64,000 nucleotides of DNA from Oricola sp. GTDB taxonomy: Bacteria > Pseudomonadota > Alphaproteobacteria > Rhizobiales > Rhizobiaceae. A model generated the notes under the pieces. That model did not search any database. It was given only the letters and a program-made list of their open reading frames with translations, and had not been told where the DNA came from. The translations under genes and the position numbers were made by a program. The stretch spans positions 248,001-312,000 of the forward strand of contig NZ_JALEGV010000014.1 in assembly GCF_022763245.1 (NCBI RefSeq). The letters run 5' to 3'. Below are positions 3,472 through 61,673 of this stretch, piece by piece. Each line of letters starts with the position of its first letter. Position 1 is the first letter of the stretch.

Positions 3472-6400
3472 TCATTTCTTCATCTGGTCCTTCAAGGCGG
3501 CCAGCTTGGCGAAGGGCGAATCCGGATCGATGGGCGCTTCGCGGCGCGGCGGCCTGGCGGAGCCGGCATTGCCGCCCTTGTTCTTGCCGCCATGATGCTG
3601 TCCGCGCTGGTCGCCGTCGCGCTTGCCGCGCGGTTTGCCCTTGCCGCCTTTCGGACGCTGGCCCTCGCCGCGTTCGCGACCTTCCTGGGCCGGTGCGCCG
3701 TCGCGGCGCTGTCCGCCTTGCGGGCGCTTGCCGCGCCGGCCGCGGTCGCCGCGCACCTGGTACCAGACGAGAACCGGCTTGGGTTCCTCGGCTTCGGCAG
3801 CCGGCTCCGTCGTTTCGCCCTCCGGCTCTACGGCGGCCTGCGGGGCTGTCTCGGATTCGGTGGCAGGCTCGGTCTGCGGTTCCTCGCTCGCGGCTTCTTC
3901 GACGCCCGGGGTCGGCTCGGGCTCGGGCGCAGTCTCCGGTGCCGGTTCGTCGGAGGCGGCCTCGGTTGCGGGTTCAGCCGTCTGTTCGGCAGTCACCTCG
4001 TCCGACGGTTCGCTTGCCGCATCCTCGGTGGCCGGTGCCGCGGGCGTGTCGGCTTCGGCGGGAGCCTCCGGTTCGGCCGGCGCGCTTGCTGCCTTCAACT
4101 CGGCGAGCTTCGCATCGAAATCGGCCGCTTCGACCTTGTCGTGGCGGTAGCCGAGGCTGCCGAGCACGGCTTCCATGTCGTCGGCGGTCGCGCCGAGGAT
4201 CGACATCATCGCCGGCGTGACGAAGAAGCGTCCGCCGCCAGCAGCCCCCTCGGGCAGCGCGTTGCCGCCTTCGCGGAACTGCAGCGCCGGGCGGATCAGG
4301 TCTGCGAGGCGCTCCAGAATGTCCACGCGCACGGCGCGGCTGCCGAGATGGCGATAGCCGGCGAGCTTGTAGAAGGCGGTGTCGAATTCGGGATCCGGCA
4401 CCAGCGAAGTCCGGCCGGTCGACAGCATATGCACGACGTCGCCATAGCCGGGCTTGTCCTTGCCGTCATTGGCGAGCGCCCAGAGCAGGGTCAAAAGGCC
4501 GGCCGGCGCGGGCTTGATCAGGGCCGGGATGAAGATGTGGTAGAAGCCGAAACGCGCACCGTAGCGACGCAGCGCCGCGCGGCCGTCCTGGTCGAGCGAC
4601 CGGATCTCGTCGGAGATCTCGCGGCGCGGGACGATGCCGTAATTCTCGATCAGGCGGAATCCGATGCCGCGGGCGATGCCGGACAATTCGTCGGCGCGCC
4701 CCAGATCGACCAGCGGCTTGAGATGCGTCTCAATGTGATGGGCGACGAAGCGCTCGAGGCGCGCGGCCACCTTGTCGCGGGACGGGCCGGTCAACTGCTC
4801 GTCGGCCAACAGCACGACGCGCGGCTTCAGCCATTCCTCGCCGGCCGTCATCGACGCGACCGGCTGGCCGATCCAGCGCAACACGCCGTCCATCGACACG
4901 GCGAAATCGCCGTTGCCGGCGGCGGCAAGCCGTTCGGCGCGGGTGTCGAACTCGGTCGCCAGCGCCTTGGCGGCAGCCGCCTTCACGGCCTTGGCGTCCT
5001 CGCCTTCCGCGGATTTGTCCGCTGAAAAGCGGAAACCGTCGAGCCGTCCGACATGGTGGCCTTCCACCGTTACATCGCCGTCCGGGCTGATATCTGCTTG
5101 CATTGTCACGTTCTCTCGCAACCGCTTCATGAGCACGGATGTCCTGCGGTCTACAAAGCGTTTCGTCAACCTGTCATGCAACGCGTCGGACAGCTTGTCC
5201 TCGATCGCGCGCGTCTTTTCTTGCCAGTGTAGCGGATCGGCAAGCCATCCGGGCCGGTTGGCCACATAGGTCCAGGTGCGGATCTGGGCGATACGGGCCG
5301 ACAGGGTGTCGATCTCGCCATCCGCGCGATCGGCGCGCAGAACCTGCTCGGCCATGTAGTCCTCGTCGACATGGCCGCGCCGGACCAAGTCGAAGAATAT
5401 CTGCGAAATGATGTCGGCATGCTGGGCCGGGGCGATCTTGCGGTAGTCGGGCAGCATGCAGCCTTCCCACAACAGCGCCACTTCGTCCCGGCCCCGGCAG
5501 ATGTCGGCGACGGTCGCGTCGCGGGCCAGGAATTCCAGCGCGCGCTGGTCGACGGCGGGCAGCGCCTTGGTCAGGCCGGGGAGATTGGGCGGGGTCTCCA
5601 GCGAGGCGCGCAGGTCGGCGATGGAGGAGAAGTCGAGCTGGCGCGAGCGCCATTGCAGCACTTTCACCGGCTCGAATTCATGGCCCTCGATGCGTTCGAC
5701 GGTCTCGTCGTCGAGCGGATGGGCGTAGCCCGAGACGCCGAAGGTGCCGTCGCGCATGTGGCGTCCGGCGCGCCCGGCGATCTGGGCCATCTCGGCGGGC
5801 GACAGTTCACGGAAGGAATAGCCGTCGAACTTCCTGAGCTGGGCGAAGGCGACGTGATCGACGTCGAGATTGAGCCCCATGCCGATGGCGTCGGTTGCGA
5901 CGAGATACTCGACGTCGCCGGACTGGTAGAGTTCGACCTGCGCATTGCGTGTGCGCGGGCTGAGCGCGCCCATGACGACCGCGGCGCCGCCGCGCTGGCG
6001 GCGGATCAGTTCGGCGATCGCGTAGACCTCGTCGGCGGAGAAGGCGACGATAGCGGACCGGCGGGGCAGGCGGGTGATCTTCTTGGAGCCCGCATAGGCC
6101 AGATGCGACATGCGGGGCCGCGAGACGATGTCGATGCCCGGCATCAGCGCGCGCAGGATCGGCGCCATCGTGCCGGCCCCCAGCAGCAATGTCTCTTCGC
6201 GGCCGCGCAGGTTGAGGATGCGGTCGGTGAAGATGTGGCCGCGCTCCAGATCGCCGGCCAGTTGCACCTCGTCGACGGCGACGAAGGCGGCGTCGGTCTG
6301 GGAGGGCATTGCTTCCACCGTGCAGACCGAGAAGCGGGCCTTGGGCGGAACGATCTTTTCCTCGCCGGTGATCAGCGCCACCTGGCCTGCGCCGACCTTC

Positions 6401-53384: not shown

Positions 53385-54131
53385 ATGGCATTCGGACTGA
53401 AAGGCGTGTTCGGCGCGCGCAGGCGGCAGGAGGAGATCGAGGCGGCACAGGCCGAGGTCATTCCGGGCGCCCGGGTCTACGACATCGTCGATTCCTACGC
53501 CAAGCTGTCGGGACAATTGGGCGACCATTTCATGTCCGACAACAGGGAATGGGAACGGCTGCGCCAGTTGCGCGTCAGCGCCTTCGCCGCGCACCATCCG
53601 AACGGATACCGGCCGCATGACGTCTTCGCCGAAATGCCCATCGTGCCCGTCGATCCGGAGCACATGCCGAAAACGGCGCGGCTGAAGAAGAGCGCGCCTG
53701 CGACGCTTCCCGAATTCTCGCTGTTCAACGGGATCAGGATCGTCTCGCAGCGCGTCCACGACGCGGTGCATGCGCTGGAGCCGGGCAGGCACCGCTTCTT
53801 TCCGCTGACCGTGACGCGTCACGACGGCGGCGAGAGCTACCGGTACTACTTCGTCCAGTTCCTCGAACAGACGGATTGCATGTGCCTGCCGCTTTCCGGC
53901 TTCCGGCAGAAGACGAGCCCGAACGGCGTGCCCTACTGGGCTTCGCCCCCGGAGCGGACGCAAACCTATTTCCTCTGGGCCGACTGCCTCGGCGACCGCC
54001 ACATGTTCCGGGATCGTCGCGCCAGGGGCGGCGTGATGGTTTCGCAGAGACTCGTCGACACGCTTGGCGACTTCCTGCCGCGCGGCATCGAACTGGTCGA
54101 AAACGGTCTCCTGAGACGAAGGGACAAGTGA
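53385..54131 (+). CDS. Imm11 (DUF1629)-like protein, copy 1
   Basis: The 248-residue protein shares blocks with the two following genes: VHALEPGRHRFFPLTV (compare EPGVHEFFPI in copy 2) and CLGDRHMFRD followed by VSQRLVDTLGDFLPRGIELV. These are the pattern of the Imm11 / DUF1629 immunity family (MXAN_0049 type). The VCNRI block of the other copies is replaced by VQFLEQTDCMC, so it has diverged most. It starts 90 bp after the VWA gene and is 2 nt from copy 2. Confidence 0.65.
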   Translation: MAFGLKGVFGARRRQEEIEAAQAEVIPGARVYDIVDSYAKLSGQLGDHFMSDNREWERLRQLRVSAFAAHHPNGYRPHDVFAEMPIVPVDPEHMPKTARLKKSAPATLPEFSLFNGIRIVSQRVHDAVHALEPGRHRFFPLTVTRHDGGESYRYYFVQFLEQTDCMCLPLSGFRQKTSPNGVPYWASPPERTQTYFLWADCLGDRHMFRDRRARGGVMVSQRLVDTLGDFLPRGIELVENGLLRRRDK

Positions 54132-54133
54132 CC

Positions 54134-54763
54134 ATGGTCTGGGAAATCGAGGCGGCCTATGACGGACGCTATTCACCGGGTGTGCGGCACCCGGAGGAGA
54201 GCCCGGACCACGATGCCGGGCGCGGCGGGCAGTCCTTCTTCGACGGCGTGGTCCAGCTGCTGAAAGAGGGCCGTCCGCTGCGCCATCCCGAGCGCATGCC
54301 GACGACCGGCCGCATCCCGAAGCCGCGCAAGCGGTTTTACGCGGTCATGCGCATGATGGACCAGCTCGGCGTGACCGAGGAACTGCGCGACTTCATCGAG
54401 AAATGGGAACCCGGCGTGCATGAGTTCTTCCCGATCCGCCTTATTGCCAAATCGACGGGCGAGGAGATGCCGGTCACCTATCACATCCTCAACGTTTGCA
54501 ACCGGATCCCGTCGATCGTGTTGGACGAAGAATTGCTCCGGATCGAACGTATCGGCGAAGGCCCCGACGCCCGACACTTCTGGTTCAGGCGCAGCGGCAA
54601 GGACCCGCTCCCGGTCTTCAGCCGCGACGCGATCGGCGGCAGGCACATCTGGCGCGACGATGGAAGCCCCGCCCGCATTTTCGCTTCAGATGCGTTCGTC
54701 GAAGCGATGGAAGAGGCCGGCTTCAAGGGCTGGGACAAGGTGTGTCACTACGACGAGGTGTAA
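54134..54763 (+). CDS. Imm11 (DUF1629)-like protein, copy 2
   Basis: The 209-residue protein has the family blocks EKWEPGVHEFFPIRL, LNVCNRIPSIVLDE, PVFSRDAIGGRHIWRD and FASDAFVEAMEEAGFKGWDK. Imm11 proteins are predicted to neutralise polymorphic toxins in contact-dependent competition. No signal peptide, so a cytosolic protein. Its ATG is 2 nt after the stop of copy 1, and copy 3 follows 40 bp later, so the three form one transcription unit. Confidence 0.75.
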   Translation: MVWEIEAAYDGRYSPGVRHPEESPDHDAGRGGQSFFDGVVQLLKEGRPLRHPERMPTTGRIPKPRKRFYAVMRMMDQLGVTEELRDFIEKWEPGVHEFFPIRLIAKSTGEEMPVTYHILNVCNRIPSIVLDEELLRIERIGEGPDARHFWFRRSGKDPLPVFSRDAIGGRHIWRDDGSPARIFASDAFVEAMEEAGFKGWDKVCHYDEV

Positions 54764-54803: not shown

Positions 54804-55412
54804 ATGGCATGTTTTCTCGGCCAGGAGTCGGGCGAAATCCTCGACCATGGCGGCATCGAAGCGCTCGATGGCGACATTGCGCGAATCAGGCCTGCCGACG
54901 TGACGCCGGACGACGGGATCAGGATCAAATCGAGCTGCTCCAATCAGGGCCGCCCACTCGAAACGGCGTTCATGCCGACGCGCATGCGCGTCGCAGGCCC
55001 GAAGCGCCGGTTGACGGATGTGCTGCCCGGTTACATGTCCCTGCTCGTGCCCGCCAGGTTCCGCGCACTGCTGGAAGAGCTGGAACCCGTCTTGCACCAG
55101 TTCTTTCCCATCATACTTGAATGGTCCGACGGCAGCCCGGCCGGCGACCGCTTCTGGTTCAATGTCTGCAACAGGATCGACGGCGTCAGCCCGGAAGGAA
55201 CGACATTCGAGTTTCGGAATATCTGGTTTCTCGACGGTTCGCCCGACAAGACGCTGGTATTCAGCCGCCAGAGGATCGGCGCCCGCCACGCCTGGGCCGA
55301 GAAGCTCATCTCGGGCTTCAACCGTCCCTTCATCAGCGATGTCTTCGCCGAAAGGCTCCAGGAGGCCGGCCTGTCCGGCATGAAGCTCCAACGCTTCGAT
55401 GAGGTCGAATGA
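54804..55412 (+). CDS. Imm11 (DUF1629)-like protein, copy 3
   Basis: The 202-residue protein has LLEELEPVLHQFFPIIL, FWFNVCNRIDGV, LVFSRQRIGARHAWAEKLIS and FISDVFAERLQEAGLSGMKLQ, the clearest match to the Imm11 / DUF1629 consensus of the three. The N-terminal 55 residues differ between copies, while the C-terminal two thirds keep the same block order. It is the last gene of the array; the 138 bp to the next gene hold nothing recognisable, and no toxin C-terminus is present. Confidence 0.78.
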   Translation: MACFLGQESGEILDHGGIEALDGDIARIRPADVTPDDGIRIKSSCSNQGRPLETAFMPTRMRVAGPKRRLTDVLPGYMSLLVPARFRALLEELEPVLHQFFPIILEWSDGSPAGDRFWFNVCNRIDGVSPEGTTFEFRNIWFLDGSPDKTLVFSRQRIGARHAWAEKLISGFNRPFISDVFAERLQEAGLSGMKLQRFDEVE

Positions 55413-58685: not shown

Positions 58686-59882
58686 TCAAATGCGGCCGCC
58701 GCGGCCGACGAAATCGAACGCCATCCGGCTGAATTTGGCGATCTGAAACAGCCGCACGCCCCATCCGTCGAAACGCCCGCCTGCCCAGTCGGCAGCGCTG
58801 ACCGGATCCGGCCACCGCGCGGCGATATCGCTTAACAACCACCCCGGCCGGCGCGTGATCGACTTCCGGAACGCCAATCGCGACCGGTGGAGGCCTGCCG
58901 GCCGTCCCCATTGTTTGAGGACCGATCGGCGCATCCACTCGGGAGCCGGGTCGCGTGCGAAGATTTGCGCCGCGCTTCGGGGCCGCGCGCCGAGAATGTC
59001 GACCGCCAGGCTGCACACGACCTCGATCTTGCGCCTCGTGAGAGGGTTACCCTCGTGGCAAAGCGACGGCAGGAAATCGTCACGGACGGTTTCCAGCATC
59101 GCTGCGACATCGCACAGCCAGACCGGTTTCCAGCCACCATGCTTCAGGAAGTGCAGGCAGAGCAGGCGCAGGTGATCCTCGTCGCCCAACGTTCGTGCCG
59201 GTGATCCGTCCTCGGTCGCGACCGCGATCGACCGCTCGACCAGTTCGGCGAAGGGCGCAGAGCCGTAGCAATCGATTCCACGATGCAGGTCGATCTGTCC
59301 CAGAAGCGCCGGCAGCGGGCTGTCGAGGGACAGAAGGGCCTGGTCCTTGCCGGGCGCATCGAGCCCGTTTGGCGTGCCATGGCAGATCTTGCCCAGCACA
59401 TGCGCCGCGTCGGCGTAATCGTTCTCGTCCACTGCGATGTCGATGTCCCCGGCCGGGCGGAGACCGGGCGAAGCGTAGCCGCGGGAGGCCATTGCAAACC
59501 CCTTGAACAGCAGCGCATCGATGCCGGCATCAGCCAGGCAGGCGGCAACATGCCGGATCGCCATGGATTGCATATGCGCCTGGAGTTCGCTGTAGCGGTA
59601 GGCCGCTTGCAGAGACGCGGCCATGCTGTCGGGCAACGAACCCGGCGATTCGGACAGTCGCTTCCATGTCAACGGCGCAACGTCCGGCGCAGCCAGCCTG
59701 GTCTGCGCATCGAGTGAGACGGTGGCGTCCGAGGTCAGGGGCGGGGCAGTGTCCCGCCAGGCGCCGCGCAAGACGAGGGAGACGGATTGGCCGAGCCTTT
59801 CGTTAGTGCTGGATTTTCCGCTCCTCAAGACGAGCCGTTTAGCTCCCGAGCCGGCTTCGATTGCCGTTACCCCAATGCGCAC
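58686..59882 (-). CDS. NTP_transf_5 nucleotidyltransferase family protein
   Basis: The 398-residue product has the minimal nucleotidyltransferase pattern: DALLFKGFAMA near residue 122 and LRPAGDIDIAVDE with the GDxD metal site near residues 145-148, then IDLHRGIDC and HFLKHGGWKPVWLCDVAAML. This is the NTP_transf_5 family often found with PqqD-like and HprK-like genes. The GTG start at 59882 lies inside the end of the PqqD gene (16-nt overlap), so translation is coupled. It is the last gene of the operon. Confidence 0.82.
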   Translation of the reverse strand: MRIGVTAIEAGSGAKRLVLRSGKSSTNERLGQSVSLVLRGAWRDTAPPLTSDATVSLDAQTRLAAPDVAPLTWKRLSESPGSLPDSMAASLQAAYRYSELQAHMQSMAIRHVAACLADAGIDALLFKGFAMASRGYASPGLRPAGDIDIAVDENDYADAAHVLGKICHGTPNGLDAPGKDQALLSLDSPLPALLGQIDLHRGIDCYGSAPFAELVERSIAVATEDGSPARTLGDEDHLRLLCLHFLKHGGWKPVWLCDVAAMLETVRDDFLPSLCHEGNPLTRRKIEVVCSLAVDILGARPRSAAQIFARDPAPEWMRRSVLKQWGRPAGLHRSRLAFRKSITRRPGWLLSDIAARWPDPVSAADWAGGRFDGWGVRLFQIAKFSRMAFDFVGRGGRI

Positions 59883-60397
59883 ACTCCGAGCATCGTGATC
59901 GGGTCGATGTTGATGCAGATGTTCAAGACGCCCTCGCAGTCGCCGTCACCCGCGCAGACATTTCCAGATGCGGCCATGGCCGGAGTCGGTACGGAAAGTG
60001 TCATCACGGAAGAGGCCGTGGCCGCCAGCGCAGTGCCCAGGCTCGCCAGCGCGCGACGCCGATCGATCGTTTCCGGCTCCGGCTTCACCGACGGCTCGAC
60101 ACCCTCTATCAACCCGCTTTCGGCGAGGCTCCGCAGAATCCCGTCAATATCGTTTCCCGATGCCCCGATGCCGCTTCGCATCGATCTGATCTGATCGGGG
60201 GATTTCGTTCCGTCGCACTCGTCCCAGACGGCCGTCGCGCGTGCGTCGAGGCAGGTCGCGCGATGCGTTTTCAGGTCGTAGATCAGGGTTTCCGATGGAA
60301 GTCGCCTGACGATCAGATCCGCCGTGCGCGCAACAGGGTGATCGCCCGCATCCGCGGGGCGGCCGGCTTGGTGCGTCGGTTTTGACTGTTCAGGCAT
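59867..60397 (-). CDS. PqqD-like protein with signal-like helix and four-Cys tail
   Basis: The 176-residue product has three parts. Residues about 24-102 are a PqqD/RRE-type winged helix (LIVRRLPSETLIYDLKTHRATCL, ATAVWDECDGTKS, ILRSLAESGLI). Residues 113-142 look like a Tat-type export signal: RRRALASLG, a hydrophobic stretch and an AMA|A cleavage pattern. Residues 143-176 form a short tail with Cys148, 154, 161 and 173. PqqD domains bind leader peptides of modified peptides. Having a carrier domain and an exported Cys-rich tail in one chain is unusual. GGGAGG precedes the ATG, which overlaps the kinase gene by 8 nt. Confidence 0.8.
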   Translation of the reverse strand: MPEQSKPTHQAGRPADAGDHPVARTADLIVRRLPSETLIYDLKTHRATCLDARATAVWDECDGTKSPDQIRSMRSGIGASGNDIDGILRSLAESGLIEGVEPSVKPEPETIDRRRALASLGTALAATASSVMTLSVPTPAMAASGNVCAGDGDCEGVLNICINIDPITMLGVCALG

Positions 60398-61283
60398 GGG
60401 AACCTCCCTGGGTGTCTGTCATCTGCAGGATCTGGCCGGCAACCGCGTCGGCTTCCGCGCGCGCCGAACTGAAGAGGGTCGCTCGCGTCACGGCCGAACT
60501 CAGAACCGGAACGACATCATGTGGCGAAATGCGTGATGACGGCGTGTTGGCCAGGAGGGCGAGCAGCCCTTGGCCGGGGGTCAGCGCCATTGGCCGCCAG
60601 ACCGCCTCGCTGTCGAAATGGCACATCAGCACCAGCCCGAGCGGCACGGGACGATCGCGACATCGTCCGCCAAAGGCCTCGATCGGGTGATCGGTCTGTG
60701 CGGTGCCGCCACCGTGTCGCAGCGAGATCGGCTTCGCGTAGGGATGGACCAGGCCATCCGCGTCGATGATGGCGAACTCGTCGGAGAGATAGTCCGCGCC
60801 GGCAGCGACAAGCGTGCTCTTGCCGGCCATCGAAGGTCCCGGAAGGATGATCGCCCAGCCGTTCCAGGCGACTGCCCCGGCATGAACGAACACCCGTCGC
60901 TTCGCGAGGCTCGCGACGACTAGCGCCAACGCGCTCGAGAAAGGCTGGAACAGATCGTCGAAGGTCTCGGACCGAAACAGGCGCGTGTGATTGCAGTAGA
61001 GCAGATGGTGATTGCGGATCCGGCGATCGGATGATGGCTGGCCGCGGATGATGGAGAAGACGCAATCGAATTCGGCCGCGGATGTCGGTTTGGCCATGGC
61101 GGGCAGGCGGTTGCGGAATTCGTCGCAGATGTTCGGGTCGTTCACCCGCACGCCGATCCGCACCCCCTCCACTTCAAACGCAAACCCGTCTTTCCAGTCG
61201 AGCCGGCTCAGCTTGTCGAAACAGGGGGTCGCCCATTCGTCAACGAGGCGGAAGGAGCGGGCGTCGATCGAGGACTCGAGCAC
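60390..61283 (-). CDS. HprK-related kinase (HPr-rel-A type)
   Basis: The 297-residue protein has a P-loop GPSMAGKSTL near residue 150, FVHAGAVAW before it, and LSDEFAIID after it, the arrangement of HPr kinase/phosphatase C-terminal domains and the related 'HprK-related kinase A' family. The N-terminal 110 residues are specific to the latter. There is no HPr or PTS gene near. The GTG at 61283 has AAGGAG 6 nt upstream; an in-frame GTG two codons earlier abuts that site. First gene of the three-gene operon. Confidence 0.82.
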   Translation of the reverse strand: MLESSIDARSFRLVDEWATPCFDKLSRLDWKDGFAFEVEGVRIGVRVNDPNICDEFRNRLPAMAKPTSAAEFDCVFSIIRGQPSSDRRIRNHHLLYCNHTRLFRSETFDDLFQPFSSALALVVASLAKRRVFVHAGAVAWNGWAIILPGPSMAGKSTLVAAGADYLSDEFAIIDADGLVHPYAKPISLRHGGGTAQTDHPIEAFGGRCRDRPVPLGLVLMCHFDSEAVWRPMALTPGQGLLALLANTPSSRISPHDVVPVLSSAVTRATLFSSARAEADAVAGQILQMTDTQGGSHA

Positions 61284-61673
61284 TGACACTCCTTTGCGTA
61301 ATGTTGCTCATGGATGAAGTATAGAGCACAGCGTCCGCTTGGCAATAAACTTCCCTTAGGAGAGAAATAGCCTGCGAATAATGGGATGCGTTGGTGATTT
61401 TTCACTCGGGAAATGCGAGGGCAGAACGACAATTTTCCCTAAAAATCATTTATTTAATGGAGTTTCGGGTCGAGCGCTTTGCGTCGAGGGGCCGTCCGTT
61501 CTGATTCGAAATACTAGTCAAATTGTTAGTCTATATATACTGCTGGAACAAAGGCGTCGCGAAAACTCTACTTTGCGTGCGCGCTGACAAACCGCCCCGG
61601 CGGGCGGGCGCGGCGAATCACAAGTCGTCCGGCGGTGATGTTCGGCTATGTGTCCGGCGGTCTCGCCGCGGCT
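61284..61673. other. AT-rich spacer upstream of the HprK-PqqD operon
   Basis: This 390-bp gap is visibly richer in A and T than the rest of the window, with TATATATA at about 61531, runs such as AATTTTCCCTAAAAATC, and no long open frame. It should contain the operon promoter, but no box pair at correct spacing stands out. Very short frames on both strands lack ribosome sites. Its composition suggests acquired DNA or a large regulatory region. Confidence 0.6.

Follow-up and report, generated by a model that had tools for sequence, protein, structure and literature searches.

Introduction

The recognition (RRE) domain of RiPP pathways is, as described in the accessible part of PMC7470986, either a discrete protein or a section of a larger biosynthetic protein. 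Phosphorylated and phosphoglycosylated lasso peptides such as paeninodin and pseudomycoidin involve an HprK homologue, a nucleotidyltransferase and a PqqD-type B1 protein, and according to the available part of PMC8498205 the HprK homologue phosphorylates the C-terminal Ser and the nucleotidyltransferase adds one or two hexoses. Bufferins and other exported RiPPs modified by an MNIO enzyme are described, in the available parts of PMC12452194 and PMC12710340, as precursors that contain Cys and a signal peptide and have an RRE-type partner. For bufferins, export is stated to have to wait for modification, and the RRE-bearing partner has been suggested, in the same part of PMC12452194, to mask the signal. 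RRE-Finder and a 2025 successor report numerous RREs that are fused to enzymes, and the available portions of the two papers hold no mention of an RRE fused to a Tat-signal Cys tail (PMC7470986, PMC12710340). For the HPr-rel-A system (TIGR04352, TIGR04353) we found no paper in the open-access literature, and titles and abstracts of that literature (subscription papers lie outside this scope) yielded none on the three-part build described below.

Results

A fused PqqD gene between a kinase and a nucleotidyltransferase

The window, by which we mean the whole 64,000-nucleotide stretch of Oricola DNA that was analysed, carries on its minus strand three genes that overlap head to tail in the order kinase, fused gene, nucleotidyltransferase:

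60390..61289, minus strand: HprK-like kinase gene (GTG start, 299 aa; P-loop GPSMAGKST, SDE motif)
59867..60397, minus strand: fused gene (ATG start, 176 aa; PqqD/RRE domain, Tat-like signal and four-Cys tail)
60095..60337, minus strand: PqqD/RRE domain of the fused gene, residues 21-101 (PF05402 E 0.01; AlphaFold2; Foldseek match to TbiB1 5v1v, E 2.1e-4)
59972..60061, minus strand: twin-arginine-like signal of the fused gene, residues 113-142 (RRRALASLG ... VPTPAMA; RR in 89/89 family members; TatC gene in the genome)
59870..59971, minus strand: predicted mature tail of the fused gene, residues 143-176, with Cys148, Cys154, Cys161 and Cys173 (pLDDT <50)
58686..59882, minus strand: NTP_transf_5 nucleotidyltransferase gene (GTG start, 398 aa; PF14907 E 7.2e-30, 104.8 bits)

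Eight bases are shared by the kinase gene and the start of the fused gene, 16 by the fused gene and the start of the nucleotidyltransferase gene, and the base composition of the trio resembles its surroundings. By Pfam scan the eight neighbouring ORFs between 53.4 kb and the end of the window at 64 kb are ordinary or unrelated, and neither a macrolactam cyclase nor a leader protease was found by Pfam in the trio and these eight ORFs. Two of the neighbouring proteins (window 53385-54128 and 54804-55409) belong to the Imm11 immunity family by Pfam, and the ORF between them (53876-54763) resembles both by eye.

A sequence-only reading had described the fused ORF as a PqqD-like domain followed by RRRALASLG, a hydrophobic stretch, an AMA/A cleavage pattern and a 34-residue tail with four Cys, and the re-read translation agrees exactly: RRR begins at residue 113, AMA occupies residues 140-142, and 34 residues remain as the tail. 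The twin-arginine motif, hydrophobic stretch and AxA site of a Tat substrate are all present, and a TatC gene was found in the window's own genome. The RR at residue 113 lies far from the N-terminus, and a domain of ~110 residues ahead of a Tat motif is unusual; the NCBIfam model TAT_signal_seq has no match in the window protein and matches 11 of 88 family members at E<=0.1. A GTG at codon 104 stands nine residues ahead of RRR. The tail, which ends in Gly, holds its four Cys without CxxC, CC or His, and its only hydroxyl side chains of the kind such kinases use are Ser144 and Thr168. A chance or mis-called ORF was ruled out by the 89 full-length family members; with RR in all 89 and even Cys numbers in 79 of 81 untruncated Cys-bearing tails, the fused gene is, judged from sequence, a real architecture and more than chance. 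Within the PqqD domain, Cys61 (CDG; codon 61, window 60215-60217) is almost invariant across the fused family.

The Pfam scan of the window protein gave PF05402 at E 0.01 and 16.6 bits, against a cut-off of 23.4. At E<=0.01 this model matches 87 of the 88 aligned members, and the single exception, which falls just outside, is the window protein itself. From Pfam alone the PqqD assignment is weak, and the predicted fold supports it. In the AlphaFold2 model (7-sequence alignment, mean pLDDT 62) residues ~21-100 are folded, a helix spans 113-127, and 123-176 have pLDDT <50. Foldseek returned three PDB matches at E<=0.001, all of them the lasso RRE TbiB1 (best 2.1e-4), and other RRE domains rank next. 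The window domain therefore combines a PF05402-type sequence, scoring below the Pfam cut-off, with a winged-helix RRE fold, and it may bind a leader peptide. The sequence-only reading had also named a check by structure prediction, namely whether the C-terminal segment is part of the globular domain; the low confidence over 123-176 rules this out and leaves the tail outside.

The window kinase matches TIGR04352 (HprK_rel_A) at E 3.9e-17 with 62.3 bits and does not reach the cut-off of 200. Searched against the PDB by phmmer it has no match at E<=1, with a kinase profile HPr kinase 1ko7 comes up at no better than E 0.05, and a structure model built from two sequences has a pLDDT of 34. Aligned with 20 kinases encoded beside other fusions, it lacks four residues after the P-loop (LVA----AGADYLSDE) and, despite this gap, keeps the P-loop and SDE motifs. 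As read from this alignment, the gap may make the window copy work less well.

Distribution of the fusion

A contig scan found three relatives, two in Pyrinomonadaceae (Acidobacteriota) and one in a Nostoc, and each of them shows this three-part build. Counting whole and partial matches, a profile of these relatives has 40 matches in one Pyrinomonadaceae genome (G812) and 15 in another (G811); the full-length rule was passed by 35 copies in G812 and 11 in G811, the other G812 matches including partial ones. Across Acidobacteriota the family profile matches 29 of 297 genomes at E<=1e-10, query genomes included, and in 26 of the 29 the match extends into the signal, while G884, G1044 and G1068 match in the PqqD part only. 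Across Cyanobacteriota it matches 2 of 244 genomes, the query Nostoc being one of them. For copy numbers these phylum scans give lower bounds (at least 14 in G812 by phylum scan versus 40 by genome scan).

Closer to the window the fusion is scarce. Only two of 385 genomes of its class match the profile at E<=1e-5, its own and G650, the latter in the PqqD part only, and no fusion was found in 60 related genomes (1 of 61, the genome itself). Plasmids yielded no relative at E<=0.01. At E<=0.01 an order-wide search with the single protein matched 14 of 397 genomes, the own genome included; these matches are weak, seven run across stop codons, and L009, L012 and L022 were rejected as relatives of the fusion, being PqqD without a tail. 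With the fusion nearly absent from relatives, the window copy could be weakened.

When fused (88) and stand-alone (40) PqqD domains are placed on one tree, 3 changes account for the fused/stand-alone label, versus 34 when it is shuffled. The tree covers only 86 columns and leaves 63 of its 125 inner branches open; on these sequences the fusion may have arisen once or a few times. By the features of its sequence, the window gene is a member of a multi-phylum, one-piece family in which a PqqD/RRE domain is followed by a twin-arginine signal and then by a variable tail with a usually even number of Cys.

Conserved signals and variable tails

Family counts refer to 89 full-length members, window included, with 12 partial matches left out and L007 and L008 omitted as duplicates of L096 and L152; the alignment and its Pfam and NCBIfam counts cover 88 members, leaving out the truncated L109. 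RR is present in 89/89 members (SRR in 64), the distance from RR to the signal end is 30 residues in 60/89, Pro stands at -5 in 86/89, Ala precedes the presumed cut in 72/89 and Ser/Thr follows at +2 after the signal in 75/89, counts that lean towards conservation because the selecting profile itself spans the signal. With GTG and TTG codons excluded from the count, a Met lies no more than 20 residues upstream of RR in only 21/89 members.

The tails range from 2 to 144 residues and from 0 to 34 Cys. Among the 87 untruncated ones the Cys number is even and non-zero in 79, odd in 2 and zero in 6, so that 79 of the 81 Cys-bearing tails have an even count, which fits disulfides formed after export. 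Five of the six Cys-less tails are T-rich or G/D/T-rich and one has two residues. Whether signal and Cys are conserved together had been put forward as a check by the sequence-only reading, which took Cys-less homologues as a ground for refutation: the signal (RR in 89/89) and the even Cys count (79/81) are kept, and the 6/87 members without Cys count against the Cys being essential. The C-terminal residues of the tails are mixed among relatives. A C..C..CC..C..C spacing occurs in 24/89 tails (mean 4.1 and maximum 13 in 1000 shuffles), and the Pfam Omega-toxin model matches two of 88 members, with a best E of 4.9e-5. In 545/595 pairs from G812, the leaders resemble each other more closely than the tails do (medians 0.42 versus 0.31), where the tail value is identity times coverage and the leader value identity alone. 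At the extremes, L113 (4003-4857) has a tail with 34 Cys in repeated CC-containing units, and L132 (2655-3062) has a two-residue tail (YD), its fused gene being flanked by kinase and nucleotidyltransferase genes.

Gene neighbours

Kinase and nucleotidyltransferase neighbours were identified within 2.5 kb by profiles trained on the same loci. Outside G811 and G812 there are 43 members, window included, and these comprise 22 with both enzymes, 8 with the kinase only, 6 with the nucleotidyltransferase only and 7 with neither. In 18 of the 22 two-enzyme members the genes run kinase-fusion-nucleotidyltransferase on one strand, as in the window, which is thus one case of this cassette. Over 20 loci, the distance matrix of the fusion correlates with that of the nucleotidyltransferase at r 0.82 (0/2000 permutations) and with that of the kinase at r 0.37 (3/2000 permutations). 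All 21 of the 21 cassette kinases scanned match TIGR04352 at E<=0.001.

Neither enzyme lies within 2.5 kb of 53/89 copies, namely all 46 in G811 and G812 and the 7 others; for 14 of the 46 the available sequence on one side is shorter than 2.5 kb, and both genomes carry NTP_transf_5 genes elsewhere. The Ser/Thr at +2 is found in 43/46 of the G811/G812 copies, where the enzymes are not nearby, versus 32/43 of the other members, and it was rejected as the kinase's site, not being enriched where the kinase is present. Neighbour clustering of copies without nearby enzymes gave a winged-helix regulator type in 9 loci, plus smaller groups. Within one syntenic group of acidobacterial loci, certain neighbour genes recur in 9 to 12 loci; by eye we take these genes to be glycosyltransferase or UDP-GlcNAc epimerase genes. 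At L007 the fused gene (4971-5513) lies between ORFs that are presumably msrP-like and msrQ-like, with presumed thioredoxin-like and CcdA-like ORFs near.

Another kind of enzyme gene adjoins some copies. A 2OG-Fe(II) oxygenase gene directly follows 6 of the 11 six-Cys copies in G812, the other 5 being without one, and in Nostoc a fused pair with Cys-less T-rich tails has nearby both a 2OG-Fe(II) oxygenase gene and a gene fusing GlcNAc-transferase and NTP_transf_5:

L101 3833-4375 and 5073-5606; L105 3927-4448 and 5184-5699: six-Cys CC-type fusions (G812), each followed by its own oxygenase gene
L103 3881-4417; L089 3944-4501: six-Cys CC-type fusions (G812), each followed by its own oxygenase gene
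L008 7010-8959: Nostoc GlcNAc-transferase (PF11397)/NTP_transf_5 fusion gene, adjoining two fused genes and the 2OG-Fe(II) oxygenase gene

Separate counterparts in HPr-rel-A loci

At E<=1e-6, TIGR04353 (PqqD_rel_X) matches 8/190 genomes of the class and 51/299 of the phylum, and 38 loci out of 61 distinct matches were read. Beside the PqqD gene, and usually before it, 33 of the 38 encode a separate Tat-signal protein with 2, 4, 6 or 8 Cys, as recognised by eye from a shared RR, a hydrophobic stretch with a VP..TL-like core and an A.A end; the five loci where none was seen are L163 (a short stretch), L169, L170, L196 and L199. By a loose Tat-Cys rule, proteins of this kind are found on the kinase strand in 32/38 loci, off that strand in 10/38 and on control strands in 8/28, where four loci without a recognised kinase scored none and one positive control strand is the Tat cluster of the window's own genome (L158). 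Six of the separate proteins searched against NCBIfam gave no match except one of E 0.04, and four searched against Pfam gave none. Many of those in L171-L198 end in SCW(S/T)SF or similar, a candidate modification or recognition motif.

With a separate Tat-Cys protein beside PqqD in these loci, the window gene seems to unite two genes that are separate elsewhere, an exported client and its recognition domain. The own genome also has separate short Tat-signal peptides beside other PqqD genes (L158 6495-7743 and L160 6478-6666). The tail is T/P-rich in three of them, and another one ends in APNGTTS; L158 further encodes a fusion of a kinase-like domain with a family 2 glycosyltransferase. Another type of C-terminal tail (DMKDLLAFDPPLP / DMQELLLLDP) is present on PqqD proteins beside kinase genes at L001 1342-1791 and L092 3857-4357, and no export signal was seen in these two proteins.

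Discussion

The HPr-rel-A system is close to the window cassette in its gene set: an HprK-like kinase, a PqqD protein and, where the stretch reaches, NTP_transf_5 occur together, and most of the loci read encode a Tat-signal protein with an even number of Cys. The window differs in that the Tat-Cys part and the PqqD domain are one polypeptide, its kinase scores 62.3 of the 200 bits set for TIGR04352, and its fused protein has no NCBIfam match up to E 1, TIGR04353 included. This latter model matches 28 of 88 family members at E<=0.1 and nothing in the own genome at E<=1e-6. Because the kinase misses its cut-off and the fused protein is without an NCBIfam match, we describe the window cassette as working like HPr-rel-A rather than as belonging to that named system. 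Phosphoglycosylated lasso peptides share the HprK homologue, the nucleotidyltransferase (which we assume to be of the PF14907 type in the lasso pathway) and the PqqD-type B1, and the window RRE fold is closest to the lasso B1 protein TbiB1. In contrast to lasso loci, the window has no cyclase or leader protease among the eight neighbours scanned, its RRE is fused to the putative substrate, and this substrate has a Tat signal and ends in Gly instead of Ser. Bufferins share the Cys-containing precursor, the signal peptide and the RRE-type partner, whereas theirs are a Sec signal, a separate RRE-DUF2063 partner and an MNIO enzyme, none of which is found in the window cassette or the scanned neighbours. 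The likeness to knottin (inhibitor cystine knot) miniproteins is one of spacing only, and concerns the 24/89 family tails with C..C..CC..C..C; the window tail, with four Cys and no CC, lacks the six-Cys CC pattern.

Taken together, we consider it somewhat better than an even bet (a probability of roughly 0.55) that the tail is a client of the cassette, modified in the cytosol, exported by Tat and closed by disulfides, with the RRE in cis as its delivery device. The RRE domain would dock the precursor on the cytosolic tailoring enzymes, the HprK-like kinase and the nucleotidyltransferase, in analogy to phosphoglycosylated lasso peptides. Placed right before the signal, it could also mask it, as suggested for the bufferin partner, and may cover it until these enzymes have acted. 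The protein would then pass to Tat, signal peptidase would cut after AMA and leave the RRE-signal part behind, and the freed tail would form two disulfides outside the cytosol. One of two proposals of the sequence-only reading had been that the tail is itself a modified substrate, joined to its own recognition domain. It is now the best-supported one, since leaders are kept while tails vary, tailoring-type genes adjoin many copies and HPr-rel-A has the same parts unfused; that the tail is modified we infer. Several observations go against it: 53/89 copies are without either enzyme within 2.5 kb, the lasso rule of a C-terminal Ser does not hold here and the window kinase has its four-residue gap, and the commonest kept Ser/Thr, at +2, is more frequent where the enzymes are not nearby.

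The absence of both enzymes from the surroundings of those 53 copies would be expected if the protein chaperoned its own export without covalent modification, the PqqD domain covering or proofreading the Tat signal, the tail being a disulfide miniprotein and the enzymes serving, for example, a surface glycan; the neighbours shared by 9 to 12 acidobacterial loci, by eye glycosyltransferase- or UDP-GlcNAc epimerase-like, point the same way. Such independence of the enzymes sits poorly with the 18 fused genes that follow a kinase gene and precede a nucleotidyltransferase gene on one strand, the correlated distances of fusion and nucleotidyltransferase, the overlap of the window genes and the oxygenase genes that adjoin some copies lacking a nearby kinase or nucleotidyltransferase, and we regard this explanation as unlikely, though worth keeping in view. 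One gene might instead give two products, the full-length protein and a short Tat peptide that begins at the internal GTG 104, with PqqD acting in trans. The separate-gene arrangement common in HPr-rel-A loci and the GTG itself are in line with this, but a Met within 20 residues upstream of RR in only 21/89 members (GTG and TTG excluded) makes it improbable.

The other proposal of the sequence-only reading, a membrane-anchored redox or metal site with an uncleaved signal and the four Cys as ligands or redox pair, found little support. It could draw on the hydrophobic segment and on the L007 copy between ORFs that we take to be msrP-like and msrQ-like; however, the Cys vary widely in spacing and in number (0 to 34), with mainly evenness persisting, the window tail has neither CxxC nor His, and Ala precedes the presumed cut in 72/89 members, so we hold it to be distinctly improbable. 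A decaying, non-functional acquisition in this genome would account for the lack of a relative in 60 related genomes and for the kinase gap. We give it very little credence against three intact overlapping ORFs, a preserved P-loop and SDE motif, and a base composition like the surroundings.

If the tail is indeed a client of the cassette, the window gene has its recognition domain as part of the apparent substrate and adjoining the export signal, unlike the RiPP arrangements described in the available parts of the literature cited above. A built-in RRE is a possible answer to how a signal-bearing precursor avoids leaving unmodified, the question raised for bufferins in the accessible part of PMC12452194. 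More tentatively, and at odds somewhat short of even, the RRE domain plus Tat signal may serve in general as the leader of secreted ribosomal miniproteins, phosphoglycosylated or hydroxylated, with the RRE delaying export; some Acidobacteriota would then hold dozens of precursors, many knottin-like, with few enzymes acting in trans. The family suggests that bacteria hold large sets of such exported tails, part of them knottin-like in spacing. This reading also names candidate clients for the HPr-rel-A system, and the same logic, if true, would explain in its unfused form what that system modifies.
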